From Chthonomonadales bacterium (GTDB taxonomy: Bacteria; Armatimonadota; Chthonomonadetes; Chthonomonadales; CAJBBX01), in the NCBI GenBank assembly GCA_013360745.1, contig JABWBA010000001.1, positions 1 through 64,000 on the forward strand: a DNA stretch of 64,000 nucleotides. The letters are read 5' to 3'. Every line of letters begins with the position of its first letter. The first letter of the stretch is position 1. Shown here in pieces: positions 16,483-18,258 of this stretch. The translations under genes and the position numbers were made by a program. Below the pieces are notes generated by a model. That model saw nothing but the letters and a program-made list of their open reading frames with translations. It ran no database searches and was not told the DNA's origin.

Positions 16483-17925
16483 ATGAGTACGTATACACCG
16501 ACCTATTGTGTGCTGACCTGGGGCTGTCAGATGAACGAGGAGGACTCCGAGCAACTGGGTCTCTTCCTGGAACAAGACGGGTTCTTACCGGCGACCGACG
16601 CTGAAAGCGCGGATGTCGTATTGTTGAACACGTGTTCCGTCCGTAGGAAGCCGGAGGAGAAGGTTTTCAGCAAACTAGGAGAACTCCGACTCCTGAAAGT
16701 TGAGCGGCCAACGATGGTGATCGGGGTCTGCGGTTGTATGGCACAGGTTCAGGCCGATGAAATCCAACGCCGTGCGCCGTACGTTGATATCATCGCAGGC
16801 ACCGGACATATTGCGGACATTCCCGCGCTTGTGCGTGAGGCATGGCGTCGGAGAAATGGGACCGCGCGCCATCAAGCCGTCACTGAGCTGTCGCTGCCAG
16901 AACGGAAAGGGAACATCGTCGTCGAAGTTCCGGAGCGGACCTTCGCGCGCCCGCGCAGACTTCGCGCGTTTGTACCCGTCATGTACGGTTGCGATCGTTT
17001 CTGCACGTTCTGCATCGTTCCCTCAACCCGAGGACGCGAGCGGAGCCGTCCTCCCTCCGATATCCTGAATGAAATCCGGAGACTTGCCTATACCGGGACG
17101 CGCGAGGTAACGCTCCTCGGTCAGACGGTGAACTACTACGGGCGACATTTGCCCCCATCCACGAGCGGGGAGTCCGTAACCCTTGCCGGGTTGATCCGGG
17201 AGATCGCTCAGGTGCCCGGTATCGAGCGGATCCGATTCACTTCACCGCATCCCTGTGGGTTCACCGATGAGCTAATCCGCGTGATCGCCGATTGTGACAG
17301 AGTGTGTGAGCATGTCCATCTGCCGTTGCAGGCCGCGGATGACCATCTGTTGCGCAGGATGCGGCGCGGCTATACGGTCGATCGCTACAGGCGCTTGCTG
17401 GATAAGCTTCGGAAACACGTCCCGGGTATTGCCGTGACGACGGATATCATGCTCGGGTTTCCCGGTGAGACGCGGGAGCAATATCGCGCGACCCTGGAGT
17501 TTGTGCGCGAGGCCCGCTTCGATTCCGCGTTTATGTTCGCCTATTCGCCCCGGCCCGGAACCCGTGCCGCAGCATCCGGCGATCAGGTGCCCGAAGCAGA
17601 GAAGGTCGATAGGCTGAATGAGCTCATCGCGACCCAAAACGGGATTACAGCGGAGATCAACCGGAGCTCGATCGGTTCATCGGTCGACGTGCTCGTTGAT
17701 GGTGCGAGCGAACGAAATGCCAATCGCGCTGTGGGGCTGACTCGAACCTTCAAGACCGTGCACATCGATCCGGTACCAGGCGACTCGCCAGGAGGAACAG
17801 GATCGCATGGGCCGAAGTTGCCGAAGATCGGCGATACCGTTCGAGTTGTCGTCACGGATGCGGGCCTGACCGGTCTTATTGCTGATTGGGCGCCGGATAC
17901 CGGGGACGCCAGCCTGATCTATTAG
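16483..17925 (+). CDS. miaB: tRNA-2-methylthio-N6-dimethylallyladenosine synthase MiaB
   Basis: A radical-SAM methylthiotransferase modifying A37 of tRNAs that read UNN codons. The N-terminal MTTase domain has its three Fe-S cysteines in TWGCQMNEEDSEQ, NTCSVRRKPEEKV and GVCGCMAQ. The radical SAM triad is CDRFCTFCIVPSTRGRE at about residues 168-184. A TRAM domain (VDVLVDGASERN to IGDTVRVVVTDA) closes the 480-residue protein. The MTTase signature NTCSVR with the following spacing fits MiaB rather than MtaB or RimO. The ATG at 16483 has no Shine-Dalgarno and probably heads a leaderless transcript. A hairpin and a minus-strand small gene lie downstream. Confidence 0.94.
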   Translation: MSTYTPTYCVLTWGCQMNEEDSEQLGLFLEQDGFLPATDAESADVVLLNTCSVRRKPEEKVFSKLGELRLLKVERPTMVIGVCGCMAQVQADEIQRRAPYVDIIAGTGHIADIPALVREAWRRRNGTARHQAVTELSLPERKGNIVVEVPERTFARPRRLRAFVPVMYGCDRFCTFCIVPSTRGRERSRPPSDILNEIRRLAYTGTREVTLLGQTVNYYGRHLPPSTSGESVTLAGLIREIAQVPGIERIRFTSPHPCGFTDELIRVIADCDRVCEHVHLPLQAADDHLLRRMRRGYTVDRYRRLLDKLRKHVPGIAVTTDIMLGFPGETREQYRATLEFVREARFDSAFMFAYSPRPGTRAAASGDQVPEAEKVDRLNELIATQNGITAEINRSSIGSSVDVLVDGASERNANRAVGLTRTFKTVHIDPVPGDSPGGTGSHGPKLPKIGDTVRVVVTDAGLTGLIADWAPDTGDASLIY

Positions 17926-17952: not shown

Positions 17953-18105
17953 TTATTCGCTCGGATGATCTTCGGACTTGTTGCTCGGAGCCTCCGAGCA
18001 CTTCCCGGGCGCCATTCAGGTAGGGACGCCAAAGCGCGGCAGAATAAAGCGCTGCAGTACGAACCAAACAACCAGAAATGCGATCAACACCGCCCATTCG
18101 GGCAT
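17953..18105 (-). CDS. Candidate small membrane selenoprotein (in-frame TGA) or 29-residue membrane peptide
   Basis: The ATG at 18105 is preceded by GGGAG at a seven-base spacing, a good ribosome site. It opens a 29-codon peptide: MPEWAV, then a single hydrophobic helix, then RFILPRFGVPT. The reading frame meets TGA at 18016-18018. It continues as MAPGKC and a short hydrophilic tail of 20 residues to TAA at 17953. If TGA is read as selenocysteine, the product is a 50-residue single-span protein with a U-x5-C pair just after the membrane segment. A perfect 8-bp hairpin with a GGC loop begins 15 bases after the TGA, within the range of bacterial SECIS elements. Seen: the frames, the ribosome site and the hairpin. 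Inferred: Sec insertion. The alternative is a 29-residue peptide ending at TGA with the hairpin as a terminator. Confidence 0.5.
17982..18000 (-). promoter_or_regulatory. SECIS-like hairpin or terminator stem
   Basis: A perfect 8-bp inverted repeat (TGCTCGGA / TCCGAGCA) with a three-base loop, GGC on the minus strand. On that strand it starts 15 bases after the in-frame TGA of the small membrane gene, placing the loop 24-26 bases after TGA with G at its first position. That fits the bacterial SECIS pattern. No T-run follows on either strand, but it also lies 57 bases beyond the miaB stop and could be a shared terminator. Confidence 0.5.
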
Positions 18106-18258
18106 TTCGATGCTCCCAAGCGAATCCTAGGTCATCCAGTACAGTACACTATACCTTATAAGATAGACGCCCGGTATTAGTGTGCTTGGGATCGTAAGGG
18201 CCGACAGGCAATGGTGGTGCGGTTATTGAGCCATATACGGATCCGAAGGGGGTGGCGG

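Follow-up and report, generated by a model that had tools for sequence, protein, structure and literature searches.

A very probable 50-residue membrane selenoprotein gene in a Chthonomonadales bacterium, with relatives across phyla and beside ArsR and DUF302 genes

The window analyzed here, a stretch of 64,000 nucleotides from a Chthonomonadales bacterium (contig JABWBA010000001.1), carries a short minus-strand gene at 18105..17953, which opens with an ATG at 18105, closes with a TAA at 17955..17953, and would encode 50 residues, including one selenocysteine (Sec), in a frame that is conserved through an internal TGA. The frame reads MPEWAVLIAFLVVWFVLQRFILPRFGVPT-TGA-MAPGKCSEAPSNKSEDHPSE-TAA, corresponding to the peptide MPEWAVLIAFLVVWFVLQRFILPRFGVPT-U-MAPGKCSEAPSNKSEDHPSE, and its segments follow one another as one hydrophobic span, LPRFGVPT, the TGA, and MAPGKC. 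Read directly from the minus strand, a Shine-Dalgarno-like GGGAG (18117..18113) lies 7 nt 5′ of the ATG, while the codons of residues 3-24 (18034..18099, minus strand) specify what is predicted to be a single membrane helix. The TGA, the putative Sec codon, is residue 30 (18018..18016, minus strand), and a TGC at 17998..18000 (minus strand) supplies the candidate partner Cys, residue 36, in a U-x5-C arrangement. A perfect 8-bp stem starts 15 nt after the TGA and its loop (17990-17992) starts 23 nt after the UGA, together forming the apical hairpin UGCUCGGA-GGC-UCCGAGCA (18000..17982, minus strand). On one side the gene is flanked by miaB (16483..17925), which converges on it, and on the other by an ORF at 18211 that diverges from it; this copy is isolated, opposite miaB, with sulfur-type neighbors absent. 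An earlier note on this DNA had named the component parts, namely the GGGAG, the membrane span, LPRFGVPT, the TGA, MAPGKC, and the 8-bp stem with its GGC loop, and all of them are present on the minus strand.

Relatives of this gene retain both the TGA and the protein beyond it. A search of 61 related genomes, using a query with Cys in place of the TGA, returned 11 good matches, the window's own gene among them, all with TGA at that codon. Profile A1, built from 17 members and run on 291 genomes of the phylum, places the family in 31 of them, where 29 have TGA (one of these divergent) and two have Cys. Weak matches (L020-L022, L024-L028, G172, and G272) are left out of the member counts, and the divergent G045 member (L097, ESA-U-PPRSC) is included since its hairpin fits. 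Outside the phylum, a scan of named genomes finds TGA-type members in five Geomonas strains or species, a further Geomonas sp., KSB1, and a Desulfobacterales bacterium, with the distribution in Desulfobacterota known from a single contig scan. The UGA is conserved in other Sec-using species, with conservation beyond it. Homologues with Cys in place of the TGA, which the earlier note had proposed to look for, exist in three cases with protein conservation continuing downstream: GIGTCMSGAC (G103/L067, TGC) and GIPTCCSGPC (G218/L070, TGT) within the phylum, and GVPTCMSNSC (L029, TGC) in a Bryobacterales genome (G291) outside it. As a separate observation, the pseudopilin motif ILAAILFPVFAxAREKARQ, typical of Armatimonadota, occurs in relatives from the phylum.

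Across the 17-row alignment, L22, P23, G26, T29, and the Sec/Cys position are invariant, and the later Cys is nearly so. The earlier idea of a U-x5-C pair at a membrane helix holds as far as the Sec is concerned, which lies just beyond the predicted helix, and needs loosening for the partner Cys, which is common and not absolute: it occurs in 33 of the 37 TGA-type members (28 as U-x4-C, four as U-x5-C, and one as U-x9-C) and is absent from four. The Sec codon is kept without a later Cys in L018 (UMTNSSHVESR), L095 (URIDSGPAAG), and L096 (URIDSKPAAG), where either a Sec/Cys pair may not be strictly required or the thiol may come from another protein. The second residue after Sec is Ser, and because this Ser is written with all six codons (TCA, TCC, TCG, TCT, AGC, and AGT), and the partner Cys with either TGC or TGT, selection acts on the protein past the TGA. 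A possible double selenoprotein is the G148 homologue (L075:1501-1656, plus strand), which reads T-U-MSSAPT-U-SSG through two in-frame TGAs. Its second TGA falls close to where the partner Cys would be, and each of the two is followed at the usual distance by a hairpin of its own, one with a UGAU loop and the other with GUC at +23 from the second TGA.

The published model of the bacterial SECIS (bSECIS) sets limits of 3-9 nt for the loop, 4-16 bp for the stem, a G in the first two loop positions, 16-37 nt for the UGA-loop spacing, and an energy at or below -7.5 kcal/mol (PMC13188914). With a 3-nt GGC loop, 8 bp, a spacing of 23 nt, and -11.7 kcal/mol (-17.6 for 47 nt), the window hairpin lies within every one of these, bearing out the earlier claim of a hairpin in the bSECIS range. 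By itself, without comparison between species, the hairpin would prove little, and its single-sequence fold is not outstanding against shuffles (z of -0.2 over 65 nt and -1.3 over 47 nt). Among the 37 TGA-bearing homologues, 73% have a hairpin of -9 kcal/mol or below with a G in the first two loop positions at the same spacing, versus 2.6% of the 1358 TGA trinucleotides found elsewhere in this DNA. The homologue loop cores are GGA, GUC, GGC, or GGG, and where that core is 3 nt long (28 members), its offset from the U of the UGA is only ever 23 or 26, one codon apart. MAFFT lost the register of these short hairpins, and 24 distinct sequences were therefore aligned on their loops before pairs were counted; in this register, 87.5% of stem cells pair and 49 cells are changed on both sides. 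Swapping the 3′ arms among members (2000 trials) gives at most 70.8% paired and 28 two-sided changes, and a sliding partner gives at most 49% and 13. Judged by this comparison between species, the hairpin is not a chance structure. Within the Cys-type genes, G103 has no such hairpin, L029 lacks a bSECIS-like hairpin, and G218 still has one, perhaps as a relic. The earlier note had worried that a hairpin here also fits a terminator; the stem lacks a trailing T-run, a terminator scan is negative, and on the sequence evidence the element is a bSECIS rather than a terminator. By these comparisons, the ribosome would decode the UGA at 18018 as Sec, with SelB-Sec-tRNA acting on the hairpin just downstream.

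The window's genome carries the machinery for such decoding, a point on which the earlier note had asked for a check. It contains a tRNA-Sec with a TCA anticodon (71.6 bits, above the gathering score), SelB, and a selD that has its own in-frame TGA (GCAGUASK) and immediately precedes the tRNA-Sec gene (L038, G000:C2, about 230-1300 and 1362-1457), while SelA is represented by a fragment at the end of the SelB contig that falls just under the cut-off (267.4 versus 267.9 bits). Within the phylum, 23 of the 29 genomes with the TGA-type gene have SelA, versus 119 of 262 others (Fisher p = 6.5e-4). Three of the six TGA genomes without SelA have SelB and tRNA-Sec; counting SelA, SelB, or tRNA-Sec, 26 of 29 are covered, and the remaining three genomes are 72-88% complete. 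In the Cys-type G103 and G218 genomes, no selA, no SelB over the cut-off, and no tRNA-Sec are detectable. The Cys-type Bryobacterales genome has both SelB and tRNA-Sec, and because it keeps this machinery and uses Cys, the Sec/Cys exchange is not forced by machinery loss.

These observations bear on two readings without selenocysteine. That the gene encodes an ordinary 29-residue membrane peptide stopping at the TGA, with the hairpin a terminator or a product of chance, draws something from the unexceptional single-sequence fold and from the hairpins that terminators often show after a stop codon, but is made highly improbable by protein conservation past the TGA, homologues with Cys for the TGA, stem covariation, the missing T-run, and the absence of such a hairpin in Cys-type G103; the downstream conservation and the Cys forms refute a peptide ending at the TGA. 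Two overlapping short ORFs coupled through a TGAATG stop-start are suggested by the ATG directly after the TGA in 25 of 37 members but are scarcely conceivable, as the other members have CTG, CTA, CTT, GTG, CGG, ACC, ATA, CCG, or TGG at that codon, several of them non-start, and reinitiation is refuted by those members without a start codon (CTA, ACC, CCG, CGG, and TGG) together with the Cys forms, which join both halves in one frame. Comparison between species shows instead a UGA decoded as Sec, its SECIS, and a family built around them, and 18105..17953 is very probably a genuine gene for a 50-residue single-span membrane selenoprotein. The selenoprotein reading of the earlier note is thereby supported by the TGA/Cys homologues, the bSECIS, and the Sec machinery in the genome, and neither of the outcomes that it had named as contrary, a genome without Sec machinery or homologues ending at the TGA, occurred.

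AlphaFold predicts one helix at residues 3-24 and coil beyond (mean pLDDT 70.8), and in 38 of 40 members positive charge is higher on the C-terminal side of the helix than on the N-terminal side. By the positive-inside rule, this charge pattern suggests an N-out/C-in orientation with Sec facing the cytoplasm, which refines the earlier note. The product would have a short extracytoplasmic N-terminus and one helix, then LPRFGVPT-U-x5-C at the cytoplasmic face and a hydrophilic tail. A thioredoxin-like fold is not seen in the predicted structure, which is one helix plus coil in 50 residues.

Comparison also shows the gene neighborhood of the relatives. The order ArsR - selenoprotein - DUF302 is found on one strand in G032 and G059, and SQR-like - selenoprotein - DUF302 in G062, where the best NCBIfam match of the SQR-like protein is the selenoprotein subtype of type III sulfide quinone reductase (127 bits, far under the cut-off). 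G025 has an adjacent DUF302 gene and a divergent ArsR gene, G248 has an ArsR gene upstream of the selenoprotein, G050 has upstream a CoA-disulfide-reductase-like gene with a rhodanese domain and an MBL-rhodanese gene, and in G012 the selenoprotein lies downstream of MFP-RND and YgaP-like membrane genes. The last of these (L103:1466-1726, minus strand), placed between the RND operon and the selenoprotein gene, encodes a tail, WCPMMWLVEKLGAQSC, with a faint resemblance to LPKLGVPTU. In G084, a zinc-ribbon gene (FmdB-type, Zn_ribbon_8; L087:1035-1259, minus strand) lies directly 3′ of the selenoprotein gene; FmdB-type selenoproteins are a known family. The DUF302 proteins at the G032/G059-type loci have, on direct reading, conserved ACNP and LPCN cysteines.

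DUF302 is present in 17 of 31 family genomes versus 61 of 260 others (p = 4.6e-4) and adjoins the selenoprotein gene in 4 of the 17 DUF302-bearing family genomes, an adjacency with p = 4e-8 to 2e-5 given an assumed chance of 0.2-1% per genome (1-3 DUF302 genes each). When neighbors within ±6 kb are set against 20 control regions, ArsR (5/30 versus 0/20, p = 0.07) and DUF302 (4/30 versus 0/20, p = 0.12) are suggestive only, and no single neighbor family is significant in this comparison. DUF302 has no match in the window's genome, so it is not obligatory, and since the window's copy is also isolated, the sulfur link rests on the relatives. Elsewhere, DUF302 genes lie between soxA and soxB in sulfur oxidizers (PMC5037610). 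In Synechocystis, the sqr operon has an ArsR-type regulator and a gene to which one DUF302 gene is similar (PMC5061849).

Because Sec and a nearby Cys would sit at the inner membrane face, in genes beside ArsR, DUF302, and sulfide-oxidizing genes, a tethered selenol relay is suggested. Here we infer the topology, the redox pair, the sulfur substrate, and the partner, and propose tentatively, as the likeliest function, that a membrane-tethered selenol/thiol pair, controlled by an ArsR-type repressor and working with DUF302, handles sulfane sulfur (persulfide) or the matching electrons. A membrane oxidoreductase would load the tethered selenol with sulfane sulfur or electrons, which would then go to a soluble thiol partner, for example DUF302; the ArsR-type repressor would be sulfur-responsive.

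A genuine selenoprotein could also serve other chemistry. A role in metal or metalloid stress, or as an RND-pump accessory, draws on the metal sensing of ArsR/SmtB regulators (the L104 and L042 regulators match the general model NF033788) and on the MFP/RND genes near the selenoprotein in G012, G025, and Cys-type G103, but is unlikely, as the immediate neighbors lean toward DUF302, SQR-like, CoADR-like, and YgaP-like genes, and RND clusters are equally frequent near the family and in control regions (3/30 versus 2/20). RND efflux as a partner is rejected on that count. Repair or scavenging of peroxides at the inner membrane face is a distinctly improbable role: redox enzymes are common among bacterial selenoproteins (PMC13188914) and a U-x4/5-C at a membrane would fit a peroxidase-like relay, but the protein has only about 50 residues and no thioredoxin fold, and no peroxidase or thioredoxin gene is recognized among the annotated neighbors. 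To extend the sulfane-sulfur proposal, and with a little less confidence than in the proposal itself, this family of about 50-60 residues could supply a widespread sulfane-sulfur module of ArsR and DUF302 with its membrane-bound selenol carrier, with at least one lineage carrying two Sec. If true, this would give DUF302 a function and Sec a role in membrane persulfide chemistry.

The window protein has no significant match in Pfam, NCBIfam 20.0, the PDB, or plasmids, and the 17 members have no NCBIfam match, the NF04xxxx selenoprotein models included. In the 2026 catalogue of 119 prokaryotic selenoprotein families (PMC13188914), no family has [VI]xT-U-[MVL][SA]x(2-3)C after a membrane helix, where families without an NCBIfam or Pfam model were compared by table motif, not by sequence. 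A search of openly readable papers by motif letters returned unrelated text only. Nine other new families were reported by the deep-Sep study, in which Geobacter sulfurreducens was among the genomes covered (PMC12013277). As far as can be searched, the family is uncatalogued, and it may have been mentioned earlier without a name. It would add a new cross-phylum family to the bacterial selenoproteins and exemplify a class likely missed by present pipelines, microproteins with a UGA halfway along a 50-codon frame; the frame would be cut short at the TGA, as the earlier note had said of gene finders. It would also link Sec to DUF302, a widespread family in sulfur-oxidation clusters, with both roles testable in one small operon.

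Compared with bacterial bSECIS selenoproteins (PMC13188914), the window gene is alike in its in-frame UGA, its 3-nt GGC loop, 8-bp stem, 23-nt spacing, and strong energy, and in having Cys homologues and Sec machinery in the genome. Like GOS_B (NF041374), DG (NF049953), DW (NF041197), and DF (NF049942), it is a small uncharacterized Sec protein known by Sec/Cys pairs and a SECIS, but no alignment member matches these models, and NF041374, which is present in the searched collection, does not match the window gene. The eukaryotic selenoproteins K and S have a single membrane span and a cytosolic Sec near the C-terminus. We regard them as work-alikes only and claim no homology, as the Sec here directly follows the helix, the SECIS is of another type, and the organism belongs to another domain. 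Finally, among the DUF302, ArsR (SuoR- and BigR-type), and SQR sulfide groups, several relatives lie in like neighborhoods, and though the window's own copy stands outside any such group, the selenoprotein would be a new component of them.
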